Positions 5,108-39,423 of a stretch of 47,021 nucleotides of DNA are shown in pieces (the stretch's first letter is position 1; every line of letters begins with the position of its first letter). Origin of the DNA: Opitutales bacterium (GTDB lineage: Bacteria > Verrucomicrobiota > Verrucomicrobiia > Opitutales > T3Sed10-336); the NCBI GenBank assembly GCA_007130045.1, contig SLTG01000092.1, positions 1 through 47,021 of the forward strand. The letters are read 5' to 3'. The notes under the pieces were generated by a model. It worked only from the letters and a program-made list of their open reading frames with translations. It had not been told where the DNA came from and made no database searches. Position numbers and translations under genes: made by a program.

Positions 5108-6099
5108 AATCCACCGGACACGTGGTCCAGCAACAGTGCCGCGAGGAGCACACAAAGGTACACGATCGAGATCTTGAACAGGAGTGGGGCGGCAAGGTCG
5201 CGGTGTTCGCGTTTTCTGAAGGCTGCGGCCTGCCAAACGAAAGGTACGCTGACCGCGGCGACCGCCGTTCCGTAAAGCCATCCCGCCCACAGGAGAAGCG
5301 GTGACAGGGAGGCGGCGACCATGCACCAGGTGTAAATCCACGCCCGCCGGGCGGCACGGTCACCGGTGGGGTCGATCACGGCAAGCATCCGAAAACCGCC
5401 CTGGCGGTAGTCGTCGCGGTAGCGCCAGGCGATCGGATGAAAGTGGGGCATCTGCCAGAAAAAAAGGAGGCTGAAGAGGACGAATCCGCTAGCGGTGACA
5501 TGCCCCGCGGCGGCCGCCGAGCCGATCAACGCCGGCATCGCTCCGGCGACGGCGCCGGCTTCGGTACACCAGGGAGTGCGGACTTTCAATGGAGTGTAGA
5601 CGAGCCAGTAGAGAACGACCGTCGCCGCCGCAAGAACCGAGGCGGAAAAGGAAAAATACGCAAAAAGGATCAAGACTCCGGCGGTCGCGAGCGCCAGCCC
5701 GATCAGGAGGACGGGCGCGGGTCGCAACTGTCCTGCAGGGATCGGACGTTCGCGCGTCCGAACCATGACGGCGTCCCTGGAATGCTCGGACCATTGGTTG
5801 AGAGCGGACGCGCCGAATCCGGCCAGTAGCGTGCCTGCCGTCAGGGCGAGAAGGATCGCGACGCTCGTTTCGGGAGCGGCGAGCACGTAGGCGCAGATTG
5901 CCGGAAGCGCGGCGGTAGCCGTTAGCGGCGCCTTGACCAGGCGCGCCGCCGCCCGGATACGGCCCGCGAGGGTCGTACTCCGCGGAGATCCCGAGTTCCC
6001 GCGCCAAGGGTTGTTCTTGGTGCGGTACGCGGGATTTCGATCCGGTTCTTCGTGACCGTTGGGGGGTGGAGACTGATGATTACAAGTCGTATCCGGCAC
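5104..6099 (-). CDS. cyoE: Protoheme IX farnesyltransferase (heme O synthase)
   Basis: An integral membrane UbiA-family prenyltransferase that adds a farnesyl group to heme b to make heme O for heme-copper oxidases. The first Asp-rich site is NQWSEHSRDAVMVRTRERP (Glu replaces the first Asp of the CyoE consensus, a known variant). YTPLKVRTP and GAVAGAMPALIGSAA follow, and the second site is WRYRDDYRQGGFRML. About eight hydrophobic helices are visible. The start is uncertain: the only initiator downstream of the hemN stop is a GTG at 6099, two bases after that stop, without a clear ribosome binding site, so coupling to hemN is likely. This gives 331 residues with a polar 40-residue N-terminus. 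The 3' end overlaps the convergent AraC gene. Confidence 0.9.
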   Translation of the reverse strand: MPDTTCNHQSPPPNGHEEPDRNPAYRTKNNPWRGNSGSPRSTTLAGRIRAAARLVKAPLTATAALPAICAYVLAAPETSVAILLALTAGTLLAGFGASALNQWSEHSRDAVMVRTRERPIPAGQLRPAPVLLIGLALATAGVLILFAYFSFSASVLAAATVVLYWLVYTPLKVRTPWCTEAGAVAGAMPALIGSAAAAGHVTASGFVLFSLLFFWQMPHFHPIAWRYRDDYRQGGFRMLAVIDPTGDRAARRAWIYTWCMVAASLSPLLLWAGWLYGTAVAAVSVPFVWQAAAFRKREHRDLAAPLLFKISIVYLCVLLAALLLDHVSGGF

Positions 6100-6101
6100 G
6101 C

Positions 6102-7520
6102 TTATACAGTTCGTGAGAATCCCTTCGGCCCTTGTTTGAGGCGCCAGTCGAAAGCCATGGCGATGTTGCGCACGAGCAGTCGTCCCAGCGGCGTCAAGCG
6201 GAGTCCTCCTTCGAATCGCTGTAAGAGACCGTCCCGCTCGGCTTCGCCGAGCGAAGCGATCTCCTTGCCGAAGTATTCTTCGAAGTCGACTCCGAGCCGC
6301 TGCGACAGTTCCGCGTAATCGAGTTGAAGGTCGCACATGACTCGCATGATGGCATTACGGCGGATCCGATCGTCGTTGTCGAGGACGTAGCCGCGGGAAA
6401 CGGGCAATTCTCCCCGCGAGATTCGCCGGTAGTACGCCGGAAGTTCCTTCTCGTTTTGCCGGTAGGTGTTGGCGGTCTGCGAAATCGACGACATCCCGAA
6501 TCCGCAGATGTCGGCGCCCGCGCGGGTGCTGTATCCCTGGAAATTCCGATGCAGGGCGCCCTCGCGTTGCGCGACTGCCAGTTCGTCGGAGGGAAGGGCG
6601 AAATGGTCCATGCCGATGTTGACGTAGCCGGCTCGCGTAAGGCGTTCCACGACGCGGCACAGCATGTCGAGTTTCATCTCCGGAGAGGGAAGATCCCCGC
6701 GTTTTTCAAAGATGCGCTGGGCGGGCTTGATCCATGGAACGTGCGCGTAGCTGAAGACCGCCAGCCGTTCCGGCTTCAAGGTCAGGACTTCACAGAGGGT
6801 TTGATCGACAGAATCGGGCGTCTGGCGTGGAAGCCCGTATATGAGATCGATATTGATCGATTCGAATCCCGCCTCCCGCAGCCACGTCACCGCGCGTTCG
6901 GTCATTTCGGGCGGTTGAATTCGATTGACCGCCTGCTGTACCTGCGGGTTGTTGTCCTGAACTCCGAGCGAGGCGCGATTTGCGCCGGAATCCCGGAGGG
7001 CTTCAATGTGCTCGCGGCTCAGCCGTCGCGGATCGATTTCAACGGCGAATTCAGCGTCGCGGGAGAAATTAAAGCGTTTCCGGATCGCGTCTCCAAGCCG
7101 CCGGACCTGTCGGGGGGAGAGAAAGGTGGGCGTGCCTCCGCCCCAGTGCATCTGGACGACCGGGCGCGCGGGGTGGATGCGTTGCGCGATCAGGTCCATT
7201 TCCTTTTCCAGCGCGTCGATATATGGGTTTGCGGAGTCGTGGTCGCGCGTAATCACGGTCGTACATCCGCAGAACCAGCAACGCGTCTCGCAAAACGGAA
7301 GGTGAAAGTAGAGTGAGAGCGGCCGGGAATCGTCGTCAGGGGAACGATGAATCTCGCCGAGCAACAGTTCCTGTTTGACTGTGTCGCTGAACTGGAGAGC
7401 CGTTGGGTAGGATGTGTACCGCGGGCCCGCCACGCTGTACTTGCGGACGAGGGCGGGATCTAAAGAACCCGGAGGCGATTCTGCGGCCTGATTCGGAGTG
7501 GATATGGAGGAGGGGCTCAT
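6102..7520 (-). CDS. hemN: Oxygen-independent coproporphyrinogen III oxidase
   Basis: A 472-residue radical-SAM enzyme that decarboxylates coproporphyrinogen III to protoporphyrinogen IX without oxygen. The HemN-type cluster motif CxxxCxxCxC is present at Cys77, 81, 84 and 86. HWGGGTPTFL, the SLGVQDNNPQVQQAVNR stretch and IDLIYGLPRQT match true HemN rather than the HemW homologue, as does the long N-terminal arm with YSVAGPRYTSYPTA. The C-terminal winged region (RLTPLGRLLVRNIAMAFD) is complete. cyoE follows almost without a gap, making a two-gene heme unit. Divergent pdxJ lies 264 bases upstream, and that region must hold both promoters. Confidence 0.96.
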   Translation of the reverse strand: MSPSSISTPNQAAESPPGSLDPALVRKYSVAGPRYTSYPTALQFSDTVKQELLLGEIHRSPDDDSRPLSLYFHLPFCETRCWFCGCTTVITRDHDSANPYIDALEKEMDLIAQRIHPARPVVQMHWGGGTPTFLSPRQVRRLGDAIRKRFNFSRDAEFAVEIDPRRLSREHIEALRDSGANRASLGVQDNNPQVQQAVNRIQPPEMTERAVTWLREAGFESINIDLIYGLPRQTPDSVDQTLCEVLTLKPERLAVFSYAHVPWIKPAQRIFEKRGDLPSPEMKLDMLCRVVERLTRAGYVNIGMDHFALPSDELAVAQREGALHRNFQGYSTRAGADICGFGMSSISQTANTYRQNEKELPAYYRRISRGELPVSRGYVLDNDDRIRRNAIMRVMCDLQLDYAELSQRLGVDFEEYFGKEIASLGEAERDGLLQRFEGGLRLTPLGRLLVRNIAMAFDWRLKQGPKGFSRTV

Positions 7521-33466: not shown

Positions 33467-33593
33467 TCGGGAACCCGTAATAACAAATGTTGTTTCAGGC
33501 GACTTGCCGGCGCCGGATCAACAGGCGGCGGGATGCCGTTCCGTGAGCGGAATTTGGTTTTCCTTTTCGGAAAATTCTGCCTTGTTCGATGGC

Positions 33594-35174
33594 ATGACTC
33601 AGACAAGGAAACCGGTGCTCTTGATCATCCGCGACGGATGGGGGGCCAACCATAATCCCGAACACGCCGCGTTCGACGCCGTAAGTTTGGCCAGGAAGCC
33701 GTGCGACGACCGTCTTCGCGCGAAATACCCGGTGACGGAGGTTGCCGCGTGCGGACTGGACGTGGGCCTTCCCGAAGGCGTGATGGGCAACAGCGAGGTG
33801 GGGCACCAGAACATCGGGGCCGGCCGGATCGTGGACCAGGAGGTCGTTCGGATCAGCAAAGCGTTCCGCGACGGGAAGATGAAGGATAACCCCGTGCTCC
33901 GGGAGATATTGGGGAATGTGACGTCGAAAGGCGGTCGCCTGCACCTGATGGGAATCGTTTCCGATGCTGGGGTGCATGGACTCCTGGAGCACCTGTACGG
34001 ATTGCTGCGCGAAGCGAAGGCGGCCGGGATCGGCGAGGTTTTCATTCACGCCTTCACCGACGGCCGCGACACCAGCCCGAGGAGTGGAGCCGGCTATTTG
34101 CGCCAGATCGAGGAGCAGTGCGGGGAAATCGGCATCGGAAAAATTGCCGGCGTCTACGGGCGTTATTGGAGCATGGACCGTGACAACCGGTGGGATCGCG
34201 TGGAACGCGCCTACAATGCCCTCACGGGCAAGGCCGCCGATCGGACCGCCCGTTCGGCGATCGAAGCGGTTGAGCATTATTATGAGAACCCGATCGACAG
34301 CGACCGCAAAGGGGATGAATTCGTCACTCCCTGCTGGATCGTGGACGACGAGGGGAAGCCGGTCGGAACGATCGCCGACGGGGACAGCGTTATTTTCTAC
34401 AATTACCGGGGGGACCGTCCGAGGGAACTCTGCAAAGCGTTCGTCCTTCCGGAATTCGACGGGTTCGAGCGCGGAAGGCAGCTCGACCTGTCGTTCGGGA
34501 CGATGACGGAGTACGAGAAGGGGCTTCCGGTGAAAGTGCTGTTTACGAAGCCGGAAAAGATGAAAAACATTCTCGGCATGTACCTCAGCGAGAAGAAAAT
34601 CTCCCAGTTCCGCTGCGCCGAAACCGAAAAATATCCTCACGTGACATTCTTTTTCAACGATTACCGGGAGGAGCCCTTTTCTTTGGAGGACCGGAAAATG
34701 GCGCAGAGCCCAAAGGTTTCGACTTACGATCAGAAACCCGAAATGTCGGCTTACGAGATTACTGAAGCGGCGAAAGACGCGATCCTTTCCGGCAAATACG
34801 GCTTCCTTCTCGTGAATTTCGCCAACCCGGACATGGTTGGCCACACCGGGGTCCTGGAGGCGACGATCAAGGCGGTCGAAACGGTCGATTCATGTGTGGA
34901 CGTGCTGCTCAAAGCGCTTGAATCCGCGGGAGGGAAGGCGATTGTCACCGCCGATCACGGAAACGCGGACCAGATGTTCGATCCCGCGTCGAACGGTCCT
35001 CACACCTCACACACTCTCAATCCGGTGGAGCTTTTTGTTGTCGGCGACGGATGCGAAAACCTCGTACTCCGCGAAGGTGGACGCCTGGGCGACATCGCGC
35101 CGACGCTCCTCGAGTTGATGGAACTGCCGGCGCCGGACGAGATGACCGGCAGTAGTCTGATCGAACGACGTTGA
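33594..35174 (+). CDS. gpmI: 2,3-bisphosphoglycerate-independent phosphoglycerate mutase
   Basis: A 526-residue alkaline-phosphatase-superfamily enzyme of glycolysis that interconverts 3- and 2-phosphoglycerate using manganese. The nucleophile Ser67 lies in [25 protein letters not shown] holds metal ligand Asp14. [76 protein letters not shown] and PHTSHT complete the family set. The start at 33594 is chosen because the family begins here; upstream codons in frame look non-native. No strong ribosome binding site is seen. Stands alone between dodecin and the S55 protease. Confidence 0.96.
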
Positions 35175-35320
35175 AGGACCGTGTAGGTTTGGCGTTTAAA
35201 GAACCCGTAAAGGTTGGCGCGTGAGGACAAATCAGCGTTAAATCGTTGCGGAATCAAGTTTCCTTTGTTTCGTTATTCTCAGTGTCAACTACTTGAGCAT
35301 TGAACCGTCTGTTTTCTTAT

Positions 35321-37159
35321 ATGTCTCAAATGCGCCGCATCCGTTTTCTGTATTGCGGCTTGGCGGTCGCGTGGGTCGCGTGGGTCGCGGGAATTGTTGT
35401 TGCCGATCAGGAAGGCCCGGAAATTATGCCGTTGTCCGAGGTCCAGCCGGGAATGCAGGGCGAATGGAGAACGGTGGTGTCCGGGACGGAGATCGAGTCA
35501 TTTCCCCTCAAAGTCATCGGTGTCGGAGAGAATTTTATCGGTCCGAGACGCTCCCTCATAATCTGCGAGGCGCTCGACGAAAAGAGCCTCGTGACCGGAC
35601 CGGTTTCCGGGATGAGCGGAAGTCCCGTCTATATCGACGGCAAGCTCGTGGGGGCCTATGCCTATGGCTTCACGTGGGCGAAGGAACAGGCGTTGATCGG
35701 CGTCACGCCCATCGAGGACATGCTGGAGGTGATGGATTGGGCGGACGCCCGGGACCACGGTGTGATCGCGCGGCGCAGCGGGGAACGCGACGGACTGAGA
35801 GGGACGCTGGAATCACAGCTTTCGCGTGAGGAGATCGGCGCGGGAGCCTGGCGTAAATCCGGTGATGTCGAATTGCCCCGGCGCGATCAGTTGCTCGAAG
35901 TGATCCAGCCCCTGCCCACCCCTTTATTCGCCTCGGGAATCTCCCCCGCTGTCATGGCCGAGTTCCAGGACGAATTTCGCCGGCGCGGCGTCGAATTGCA
36001 GGCCGCCCCGATGGGGAAGGGACGCGAGGATATGGATCTGGAACTCGAACCCGGGTCGGCGGTTGCAGGAGTGCTGATGAGCGGGGACTTCACCTTTGCC
36101 GGCACCGGGACCGTGACCTATCGGGACGGGGATAGGGTTCTGGCGTTCGGGCATTCATTTTTCGGTGATGGCGACGTGGCGATTCCGATGGCCCCCGCTG
36201 AGGTGATGACCATCGTGCAATCGGTGATGAGTTCATTCAAACTGAGCAATCCGGGACCCGTCGTGGGGACGATCCACCAGGACAGGCAAAGCGGGATTGC
36301 GGGAACAGTCGGGCGGAGCGCGCCGGTTACCGGCATGGAGGTGCGCGTGCACGGCCGCCTGGGAGAAACCGAGGTTTTTCGCGGCGACCTGTTCGAGAAT
36401 GAGTATTTGTCGCCGCTGATCTCCGCGACGGCGCTGTTGGAGGTGCTGATGGGTGCGAAGAGAGCGGGTTTTGAACGGACCTTTTTTATCGAAAGCCACT
36501 GGGATATTGAAGGGGAAGAGCCGATTGTCCTTAAGGATGCCGCCGCCGGCGCCTCCGCGCCGCTTGTTCTGGCGTCCGAACACCTGTTCCTTTACGACCG
36601 GATCGTCGGCAATCCATTTGTCTTTCCCAGGGTGAACAGGGTCGTGGTCGAGATAACGGCGGAAACGGAGCAACGCCTCTCCCAGCTCGAAGCGGTGCAG
36701 CTCGACCGCACCCGGTTTCGCGGAGGCGATGAGATCGAAGTACTCCTGCGACTGAGGAATTTCCGGGGTGAAGAATCCGTCGAACGTGTGCGGGTTCCGT
36801 TGCCGGAGAGAACCCGGAATGGGAAGTTTACCCTTTTCGTCGGCGACGCGCGAGCCGCTCGAAGCGTGGACGATGCGCGGGCCGCGGTCCCCGCGAACTT
36901 TGGACAGTTTCTCGATCGCATCCGCGATCATTACTCGCACAGGGAGATCACCGTAAAAGTGCTCGAGGAGGCGCCCGGGCTGACAGTGGAAGGACAGGTG
37001 CTCGCGGATCTCCTGCCGTCAGTGAGATCGCTCTACGGATCGCAGGGCACGCAGGTTAGGAGCGCGCAGACCGGATCGAAAACCCTGTGGGAGGATCGCC
37101 TGACCCTGGACGGGGAGTTTAGGGGGAGTTACAGGCGAACGTTCACACTTGAACAGTAG
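35321..37159 (+). CDS. SpoIVB-type peptidase S55 domain protein, permuted
   Basis: 612 residues from ATG 35321. An N-terminal hydrophobic helix (FLYCGLAVAWVAWVAGIVVA) directs export or anchoring. The serine motif GMSGSPVYIDGK lies at 97-108, with Asp86 about 13 residues earlier. The segment around GTGTVTYRDGDRVLAFGH carries His278. In Bacillus SpoIVB the order is His, Asp, Ser, with GMSGSP near the C-terminus; here the serine segment comes first, so the arrangement is circularly permuted, as in related proteins of Gram-negatives known to me. The C-terminal third (380-612) is of beta character without a named domain. Eight bases separate it from the beta-propeller gene. Substrate unknown; sporulation is not implied. 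Confidence 0.82.
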   Translation: MSQMRRIRFLYCGLAVAWVAWVAGIVVADQEGPEIMPLSEVQPGMQGEWRTVVSGTEIESFPLKVIGVGENFIGPRRSLIICEALDEKSLVTGPVSGMSGSPVYIDGKLVGAYAYGFTWAKEQALIGVTPIEDMLEVMDWADARDHGVIARRSGERDGLRGTLESQLSREEIGAGAWRKSGDVELPRRDQLLEVIQPLPTPLFASGISPAVMAEFQDEFRRRGVELQAAPMGKGREDMDLELEPGSAVAGVLMSGDFTFAGTGTVTYRDGDRVLAFGHSFFGDGDVAIPMAPAEVMTIVQSVMSSFKLSNPGPVVGTIHQDRQSGIAGTVGRSAPVTGMEVRVHGRLGETEVFRGDLFENEYLSPLISATALLEVLMGAKRAGFERTFFIESHWDIEGEEPIVLKDAAAGASAPLVLASEHLFLYDRIVGNPFVFPRVNRVVVEITAETEQRLSQLEAVQLDRTRFRGGDEIEVLLRLRNFRGEESVERVRVPLPERTRNGKFTLFVGDARAARSVDDARAAVPANFGQFLDRIRDHYSHREITVKVLEEAPGLTVEGQVLADLLPSVRSLYGSQGTQVRSAQTGSKTLWEDRLTLDGEFRGSYRRTFTLEQ

Positions 37160-37167
37160 GATTTGCA

Positions 37168-39423
37168 ATGTCATTGAGTTGTCAATACGCATTTCGTAAT
37201 CGGCGGTTTCTTCGGGAAACGTTGTTGCGGATCGCCCCGGTGCTGGGACTGGTTGCGCTGCTTCCGGCGGCGGTTTTCGCGGTGAGGACGGAGTCGGTGG
37301 AGCACCAGAGTTTTGAGGATTTTCTCGGGGGCGATTTCCGCAACGTCGCGCTGAGCAGTTCGGGCGCGCTAATCCTGGCTCCGGAAGCGGAGGAGCTGGC
37401 CGGTCCCGACGAGCCGATTATATGGAGCGCCGTTTCGGACTCGAACGGGGGCTTTTTCTTCGGCACCGGAAACCGGGGCAAGGTTTTTCATCTTTCGGCC
37501 GACGGCGAGCTGCGCACCGTGTTCGAGCCGGAGCAGGTGCTTTCCCGCTCGCTGGCGCTCGCGCCGGATGGAACGCTTTTTGTCGGAACGTCTCCGGAAG
37601 GCAGGGTGTACCGGATTCGTGACGATGAGAAACCCGAGGTGTTCTTCGAGCCGGAGCAAAACTACATCTGGGACATCGTCCTCAACGACCAGGGCGACAT
37701 GTACGTTGCCACCGGTGCCCAGGGGCACATTTACAGGCTCGCTCATGATCATGAACCCGGAGAAGCCGTCGAACTCTTTTTTGAAAGCGACCAAACGCAC
37801 ATTTCGACGCTGGCGTGGGATGGTGAAGGGAGACTGCTTGCCGGGACCAGCCCGGGAGGTTTTGTTTATCGCCTTGATGCGGAGGGCAACGCCTTTGCGA
37901 TCCTTAATACCGGTGACAACGAAATCAAGCGGATCGTTACCGCCGAGGACGGGGCCCTCTACGTGGCCACTTTTACCGAGGAAAGCGGCGGATCGGCGCC
38001 TCCCGCCCGGCCCACTGGAGCCATTGCGAACGTCATTCAGGCGTTGATCGGCTCGGGTGAGAATGACAATTCCTCCAACAACGCGCGGCAGCAGGCACAG
38101 CGCGCGACCGCGCAGGCAAGAATCAGTATGATTTACAGGGTGGATCCCGACGGGTTTGCCGAACCTCACTGGGTTCTTCCGGGGCATGCGATTCACTCGA
38201 TGATTCTCCTTCCGGATGGCAGGCTGCTCGTCGGCATGGGCAACGACGGACGGGTTTTTTCCGTTTCCGATGCGACGGACTGGCAGTTGCTTCAACGGCT
38301 TGAAAGCGGGGGAGAGGTTTCGGTCCTTTTGCCCGGCTCCGCGAAGGACGGCGAAGTGTACGCCCTGAGCAGCAATCCTTCCCGCATCTATCGAATGGAT
38401 TTTTCGCTTGCGGCAAAGGGACATTATACTTCGGAAGTGCTCGATATGGAGCGTGGTTCGCATTGGGGGCGTTTTCATCTCGACGGGGCCGGCGACGGCA
38501 TCCGTGTTTCCACCCGCAGCGGCAACACCGACGAACCGGAACGCACCTGGAGCGATTGGACCGATCCGGCGAACGCCGGCGAGGCAAACGCGATAGGGAG
38601 TCCCGCAGCCCGCTACATCCAGTACCGCGTTTACCTGGAAAGCGACGGCGGGTCGAATCCGCTTCCGCGGGTCAACCGTACACGTCTGTTCTACCGGAAC
38701 TTCAACGCCTCGCCAGCGATTACCGGGATAAGACTCGTTCCTGCCGAGGTTGCCCTGGAGCGGGTTCCCGCTTCTCCCCAGGCGCCGAGTATCGATCTGG
38801 ATCAGCTTTTTAATTCAAACCGGGTCCGCTCTTCCAACGCCCAACAGCGAACCGGGCAGCTCCGGGCTGTTGAGCGCCCGGGGCTCGCCACGATCGCATG
38901 GCAGGCAAGGGATCCGAACGACGATGATCTCAGTTTTACGCTCAGGATTCGCTCGGAGGACGAGGAACGTTGGACGACCCTCGCGGAGGACCTGCGCGAC
39001 AACTTCTTTTCCTTCAATACCCGCGGATTCGACGAGGGGCGCTATTATGCGAAGGTGATCGCCAGTGACCACCTGTCCAACCCGCCCGGAGAGGCAAGAA
39101 CGGCGTCGCGCACAAGCGAAGCGTTTCTCATCGACAATACTTCGCCGACAGTGGAGCTCTTGGAGAAAAATGTCGGCAACGCTTCGGCGGTGCTGCGTGT
39201 GGCTGTGGAAGACCGCGTCAGCATTATTAAAGATGTCCGTTACTATCTTAACGGCGGAGACCGGACACCGATCTTTCCTGAGGATGGTCTGTTCGACTCG
39301 CGTCGCGAAACATTCCGGCTCGAACTGAACGACCTCGAGCCGGGCGCCCATAGCGTGATTGTCGCCGCCGAAGACGAAGCAGGCAACGAGCGAGTCCTCA
39401 ACATCCATTTCGAGGTCGATTAA
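37168..39423 (+). CDS. Exported beta-propeller protein with C-terminal fibronectin/Ig-like region
   Basis: 751 residues. A signal peptide is likely at residues about 18-38 (LLRIAPVLGLVALLPAAVFA). At least five blades with GTG-x-x-G-x-(V/I)-(Y/F) pattern are visible: FFGTGNRGKVFHL, LFVGTSPEGRVYRI, MYVATGAQGHIYRL, LLAGTSPGGFVYRL and LLVGMGNDGRVFSV. Between blades there is an Asn/Gln/Ala-rich linker around residues 280-315. Residues about 560-751 look like fibronectin or Ig-like sheets (ATIAWQARDPNDDDLSFTLR, SPTVELLEKNVGNASAVLRV). It starts 8 bases after the S55 peptidase stop, so they probably share a transcript. Surface binding or structural role inferred. Confidence 0.75.
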   Translation: MSLSCQYAFRNRRFLRETLLRIAPVLGLVALLPAAVFAVRTESVEHQSFEDFLGGDFRNVALSSSGALILAPEAEELAGPDEPIIWSAVSDSNGGFFFGTGNRGKVFHLSADGELRTVFEPEQVLSRSLALAPDGTLFVGTSPEGRVYRIRDDEKPEVFFEPEQNYIWDIVLNDQGDMYVATGAQGHIYRLAHDHEPGEAVELFFESDQTHISTLAWDGEGRLLAGTSPGGFVYRLDAEGNAFAILNTGDNEIKRIVTAEDGALYVATFTEESGGSAPPARPTGAIANVIQALIGSGENDNSSNNARQQAQRATAQARISMIYRVDPDGFAEPHWVLPGHAIHSMILLPDGRLLVGMGNDGRVFSVSDATDWQLLQRLESGGEVSVLLPGSAKDGEVYALSSNPSRIYRMDFSLAAKGHYTSEVLDMERGSHWGRFHLDGAGDGIRVSTRSGNTDEPERTWSDWTDPANAGEANAIGSPAARYIQYRVYLESDGGSNPLPRVNRTRLFYRNFNASPAITGIRLVPAEVALERVPASPQAPSIDLDQLFNSNRVRSSNAQQRTGQLRAVERPGLATIAWQARDPNDDDLSFTLRIRSEDEERWTTLAEDLRDNFFSFNTRGFDEGRYYAKVIASDHLSNPPGEARTASRTSEAFLIDNTSPTVELLEKNVGNASAVLRVAVEDRVSIIKDVRYYLNGGDRTPIFPEDGLFDSRRETFRLELNDLEPGAHSVIVAAEDEAGNERVLNIHFEVD

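Follow-up and report, generated by a model that had tools for sequence, protein, structure and literature searches.

To our knowledge, the catalytic residues of trypsin-like proteases are assumed always to run His-Asp-Ser along the chain. HtrA proteases of the PA clan have this usual order, together with PDZ domains. The described protein closest to the one studied here is SpoIVB of Bacillus subtilis (family S55, PF05580, PDB entry 9lnf), with which it shares homologous Ser and His halves, the motifs GMSGSP and GH, and the character of an exported peptidase of the serine type. According to the report on the SpoIVB crystal, Asp363 lies about 24 Å from His236, and the authors propose Thr393 as the third catalytic residue (PMC12502668). 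That S55 labels are found on genes outside sporeformers is already known: in a second report the SpoIVB peptidase (S55) was widely detected in acidobacteria (PMC8841776). Those acidobacterial genes have the S55 label in common with our protein, the comparison being by label alone; the 'S55' that appears in PMC5900883 is the name of a strain and not the peptidase family.

The window analysed here is a stretch of 47,021 nucleotides (contig SLTG01000092.1, Opitutales bacterium), in which a first-pass annotation had placed, at 35321-37159, an exported S55 peptidase with permuted catalytic order. Compared with SpoIVB, this protein has its two halves swapped, no detectable PDZ domain, Asp in place of Asn290 and about 250 extra residues at the C-terminus; there is no Spo0A in its genome, and it has a propeller partner. 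The observations described below are that the homologous halves are swapped, that three residues are conserved, that the gene is present in a single copy and that a propeller gene is its constant neighbour. We consider it likely that they reflect a permuted PA-clan protease of the SpoIVB/S55 branch, with a Ser-His-Asp triad, which would act in envelope processing with or on the propeller and not in sporulation.

The gene and the layout of its product

The open reading frame of the protease extends from 35300 to 37159 on the + strand and is open throughout. The gene of the permuted S55-type protease (35321..37159, + strand) encodes 612 aa from the ATG at 35321, or 619 aa if counted from the TTG at 35300; the ATG is the likelier start, because a close relative (L032) has Met at the equivalent position. 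The numbers of Asp86, Ser99, His278, Lys307 and Asp321 are counted from the ATG; in the 619-aa form, which adds 7, the same residues are D93, S106, H285, K314 and D328. GMSGSP at 97-102, Asp86 and GH at 277-278 were all found at the positions that the first-pass annotation had given them.

The chain starts with a putative signal peptide (35321..35404, + strand), recognized by eye from a basic start, a hydrophobic run and a VVA end, and modelled as a helix by AF2 (residues 2-35). A Ser barrel follows (residues 39-153 of the 619-aa form; 35414..35758, + strand), delimited by VIA-align superpositions on DegQ and 9lnf and by hhalign to the Ser half of SpoIVB; this is what constitutes the C-terminal half in ordinary proteases of such type. 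A linker that contains a small beta-alpha-beta element (35765..36049, + strand) is partly disordered, with pLDDT <50 at 160-190 and order from about residue 195. The His half, normally the N-terminal one, comes next (residues 254-366 of the 619-aa form; 36059..36397, + strand) and is delimited by hhalign and by a model with pLDDT of 91.2 when this half is modelled alone. The remainder (residues 367-619; 36398..37156, + strand) is beta-rich and mostly of high pLDDT; these C-terminal residues, about 250 in number, gave no match in the Pfam scan.

Relationship to S55 and host context

Against the Pfam model PF05580 (Peptidase_S55) the window protein scores 34.2 bits, with a cut-off of 25. In native order the best stretch aligns residues 44-124 with positions 114-194 of the 210 in the profile, not with most of the model; the N-terminal piece alone scores 27.4 bits, and as the remaining pieces of the protease gave no match in the plain Pfam scan, the Ser half was the sole one found. 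A profile of 81 sequences lifts the match of the Ser half to E 1.9e-6. SpoIVB (9lnf) was the only phmmer match in the PDB, with query residues 45-124 on chain residues 221-300 (15.3 bits) and query residues 266-342 on chain residues 119-196 (weak, 1.1 bits); the Ser of GxSGxP and the His of GH align with Ser378 and His236 of SpoIVB. With a PF05580 score above the cut-off and 9lnf as the sole match in the PDB, the resemblance to SpoIVB noticed in the first-pass annotation is not a chance one. PDZ domains had no Pfam match in the window protease, and when a profile of the SpoIVB PDZ domain was compared with the linker (150-261 in the numbering of the 619-aa form) and with the C-terminal part, the scores were 12-13, which is no match.

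The nearest named relatives of the protein are MAGs of Opitutia/Verrucomicrobiota. The source genome, which is 97% complete, contains one S55 match and yielded none for Spo0A_C, for which a B. subtilis control gives a match. These results bear out the earlier suggestion that there is no link to sporulation.

The homologous halves are in swapped order

Plain Pfam scans gave the Ser half only, and comparison of profiles and rotation of the halves were adopted for this reason. The comparison set of 12 SpoIVB sequences was obtained by tblastn with a segment of 9lnf, and came from 3 Bacillota plasmid records and 9 unannotated faecal 'phage' records. In 11 of these 12 both motifs were recognized by pattern, with His before Ser; the twelfth (L154) shows GH in the alignment. 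The order is Ser motif before His motif in the 19 full-length loci among the 21 of the set L131-L151. The first family alignment consisted of 24 rows from the copies found in relatives; the copy in the window, incomplete copies and a small number of others were not included. In native order, the family profile and the SpoIVB profile give two separate alignments, at residues 45-147 (Ser half, score 93.8) and 265-341 (His half, 38.4); when the family profile is rotated (residues 245-359, then 38-155) there is a single alignment of 182 columns, with a score of 115.2. With 18 relatives from a second phylum added, the rotated score is 128.4 and the native ones are 100.2 and 37.0. Taken alone, the His half has a weak hhalign probability (48% and 76%); shuffling the columns 400 times never reached its score of 31.5 (highest 25.1, average 13.8), and a reversed profile gave 16.0.

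The same trend can be recognized when the two pieces are joined, with the linker (about 157-244) and everything from residue 353 to the C-terminus removed, and scored against PF05580 in native or in rotated order: 38.1 vs 43.0 bits for the window protein, 53.5 vs 60.5 for L132, and 57.2 vs 67.4 for L133. The rotated constructs cover the profile in one stretch, at positions 13-194, 12-201 and 13-202 of 210, respectively, and a single-stretch match including both halves is seen in rotated constructs only. TIGR02860, the SpoIVB equivalog model, behaves like PF05580: the window protein scores 25 bits in native order, and its joined pieces 29.2 bits in native and 33.5 in rotated order, all below the cut-off of 305.25. 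The circular permutation put forward in the first-pass annotation is thus upheld by the swapped phmmer matches, by the profile comparison and by the rotated Pfam and TIGR02860 matches, and the alignment after rotation that it had proposed as a check yields one unbroken SpoIVB/S55 match.

The AF2 model, built from 81 sequences, has a mean pLDDT of 88.3 and a pTM of 0.85. Residues 39-153 (619-aa form) superimpose on residues 127-242 of DegQ, the C-terminal barrel of an HtrA protease (VIA-align Z 8.7, 105 residues aligned, 3.1 Å), and on residues 311-426 of 9lnf (Z 7.1, 110 aligned, 3.5 Å, 22% identity). The Ser is thus carried by what the model presents as a trypsin-like C-terminal barrel of the PA clan, and since it is C-terminal barrels that this segment fits, the protein would begin with the barrel that is normally second. 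The likeness to HtrA is one of modelled fold; no sequence match of the window protein to HtrA/DegQ proteases was found. The isolated model of the His half found PA proteases at Z values up to 6.5 in VIA-align (best SplA), on their C-terminal barrel, and 9lnf was not among the best 50 rows; in Foldseek 9lnf ranked second (probability 0.96, E 0.093, TM-score 0.40). With the whole model Foldseek returned no match at E 0.001 or better, and the beta-folds of superantigens, which fill many of its top rows with low TM-scores, were taken as noise.

These data also bear on the reading in which there is no permutation, the Ser half being related to S55 and the GH region belonging to an unrelated domain whose likeness to SpoIVB is fortuitous. 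Such a reading would explain why significance in plain searches was reached by the Ser half only, and why the isolated His-half model fits better on the other, C-terminal barrel. It is hardly tenable in the face of the shuffles, of rotated Pfam and TIGR02860 matches that run across the artificial joint, and of the fact that GH is followed by the stretch GxIxxD/N...GI.G in the same order in the family as in SpoIVB. The evidence for the His half comes from sequence profiles and not from the fold comparisons, and at this level the protein is a permutant: the Ser-containing half precedes the His-containing half, and both are homologous to SpoIVB in swapped order. A literature search of titles and abstracts, which took in few subscription papers, returned no report of a permuted S55 protein and none of a trypsin fold permuted in nature.

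Predicted catalytic residues

Conservation was assessed in 99 aligned rows: the window protein, 80 related loci and 18 proteins of the second phylum. The alignments leave out the truncated L144 and L145 (of the 20 loci L132-L151) and L131, which is a duplicate of L072; a fragment alignment retained 79 of 81 rows, with L079 and L111 set aside for long insertions. Four residues are invariant in 99/99 rows, namely Ser99 (S106; 35615..35617, + strand), the counterpart of SpoIVB Ser378 and predicted nucleophile; His278 (H285; 36152..36154, + strand), the counterpart of His236 and predicted base; Lys307 (K314); and Asp321 (D328; 36281..36283, + strand). The invariance of the His and the Asp is independent of selection, because the patterns used in the locus search held the Ser region only.

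The first-pass annotation had proposed a triad Ser99-Asp86-His278, of which the Ser and the His are supported and Asp86 is not. Asp86 (D93; 35576..35578, + strand) is the counterpart of SpoIVB Asp363 in the alignment, and 80/81 rows of the mostly Verrucomicrobiota set have Asp here, as a permuted S55 peptidase with that triad would have it. At this position the 99 rows show Asp 81 times, Gly 17 times and Ser once; the second phylum, with 19 rows (L072 plus 18 more) in which Ser, His and Asp321 are invariant, has 17 with Gly, 1 with Ser and 1 with Asp. In the SpoIVB crystal the counterpart of Asp86 is about 24 Å from the catalytic His (PMC12502668), and by homology Asp86 would sit far from the other two, with Ser99 and His278 close to each other. 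Asp86 is probably not catalytic, and we regard a triad built on it as very unlikely.

Judging from conservation, Asp321 is a better candidate for the third residue. It lies just before a strand of the AF2 model (332-337), 43-44 residues past the His in the 99 rows, which we take to be the topological place of chymotrypsin Asp102. Since Ser99, His278 and Asp321 are invariant and Asp86 is not, the predicted triad is Ser99-His278-Asp321, whose linear order Ser-His-Asp is a rotation of the usual His-Asp-Ser. In SpoIVB the position of Asp321 is occupied by Asn290, which is Asn in 11 of the 12 SpoIVB sequences and in 9lnf. Because this Asn is conserved in SpoIVB and aligned with the invariant Asp of the permuted family, it becomes a candidate for the third catalytic position in SpoIVB itself. 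Asn290 was reportedly discussed by Hoa et al. in 2002; our literature search found no paper linking SpoIVB with N290. Thr393 of SpoIVB, by comparison, corresponds to Ala, Ser or Cys in the permuted family.

As a side observation, Lys307 (36239-36241) is accompanied by a Ser two residues earlier in 98/99 rows.

The propeller neighbour

The protease stop is 8 bases 5' of the next open reading frame, a gene for an exported beta-propeller protein of 751 aa with an Ig-like C-terminal part (37168..39423, + strand); Reg_prop matches it at 41 bits, over its cut-off, and Ig-like families match below their Pfam cut-offs only. The coupling to a beta-propeller gene that had been noticed in the window holds far beyond it. 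A propeller lies directly downstream, on the same strand, in 73/80 related loci; its start, as extrapolated from the match, has a median position 27 bases inside the protease end, and the largest gap is 240 bases. Among the 7 loci without this neighbour, 6 end within 600 bases of the protease, and in L084 no propeller was found in the 1,798 bases downstream. In the second phylum the propeller is adjacent in 17/18 regions of about 11-12 kb and in L072; the exception is L180 (genome G311), in which it lies about 10 kb from the protease on the same contig.

The two genes also occur together at the level of genomes. Among 53 relatives of the source organism, both genes are found in 29, the protease alone in 0, the propeller alone in 1 and neither in 23; the corresponding figures for 82 genomes of the second phylum are 58, 3, 2 and 19. 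Fisher P values for this co-occurrence are 4e-14 and 1.5e-13, respectively, uncorrected for kinship and with cut-offs that differ between searches.

Upstream of the protease is a gene for iPGM, a phosphoglycerate mutase (33504-35174), which is also present in the flanks of 11/80 related loci; this gene environment is therefore conserved in a portion of the order. Loci of the second phylum often have a further gene, of about 330-350 aa, after protease and propeller; in L072 the gene in this place (5125-6165) is of the DHH/DHHA1 phosphoesterase type, which suggests that protease, propeller and DHH/DHHA1 form a three-gene unit there.

Distribution

The protease is present in 29/53 relatives, as a single full-length copy; in G016, G041 and G046 it appears as two pieces of one gene each. 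At E 0.001 the S55 model matches 27/194 genomes of the phylum, 22 of them over the cut-off, and all stretches fall within positions 92-205 of the profile. In the second phylum, that of L072 (a MAG of candidate division KSB1), 61/82 genomes have one match each, 58 over the cut-off, with stretches within 104-209. A tblastn search with the protease against plasmids found none. One hit in viral contigs from a scan with SpoIVB (L152) matched over only 20 residues and was not used.

Discussion

The likely reading, a permuted S55-branch protease with a Ser-His-Asp triad, can be put in mechanistic terms as follows. The protein would be exported, and its N-terminal Ser half and later His half would come together as two barrels that make up a single protease domain, where Ser99 may meet His278 and Asp321 in space to serve as nucleophile; His278 would act as base and be oriented by the acid Asp321. 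The site of action would be the periplasm or the cell surface, and the protein may work there in proteolytic processing, either alongside the neighbouring secreted propeller or on it; it would have no role in sporulation.

A different view of the same data is that the permuted S55 scaffold does not cut, and instead binds the propeller or serves as its chaperone. A constant pairing with the propeller would suit a chaperone too, Thr393 of SpoIVB is not conserved, and peptidase activity of the permuted protein is itself a prediction from sequence. We nonetheless find this view unlikely, as three residues of catalytic type invariant in 99/99 rows from two phyla would be unusual for a dead enzyme.

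Going further than the likely reading of a permuted protease, we hold with slightly better than even confidence that a conserved permutant of the PA fold, present in at least two phyla, forms with its dedicated propeller an as yet undescribed module of envelope proteolysis, the Asp of its Ser-His-Asp triad being at the site of Asn290. If so, SpoIVB itself would use Ser378-His236-Asn290, and not Asp363 or Thr393; in this sense Asn290 is a new candidate in the dispute over which residue is the third catalytic one in SpoIVB. Retention of a natural permutant in two phyla would show that a swap in the order of the barrels is compatible with function, and may illustrate a way in which a widespread protease fold is rewired. 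For the many genes that have no more than an S55 label, the neighbouring propeller is also a candidate partner.

Finally, a minor observation concerns the records from which the SpoIVB comparison set was drawn. The records that hold the spoIVB genes L153-L164 bear the label plasmid or 'Bacteriophage sp.' (faecal samples), and two of these genes, in 2 of the 3 plasmid records, are beside spo0A; these records look like mislabelled pieces of bacterial chromosomes.
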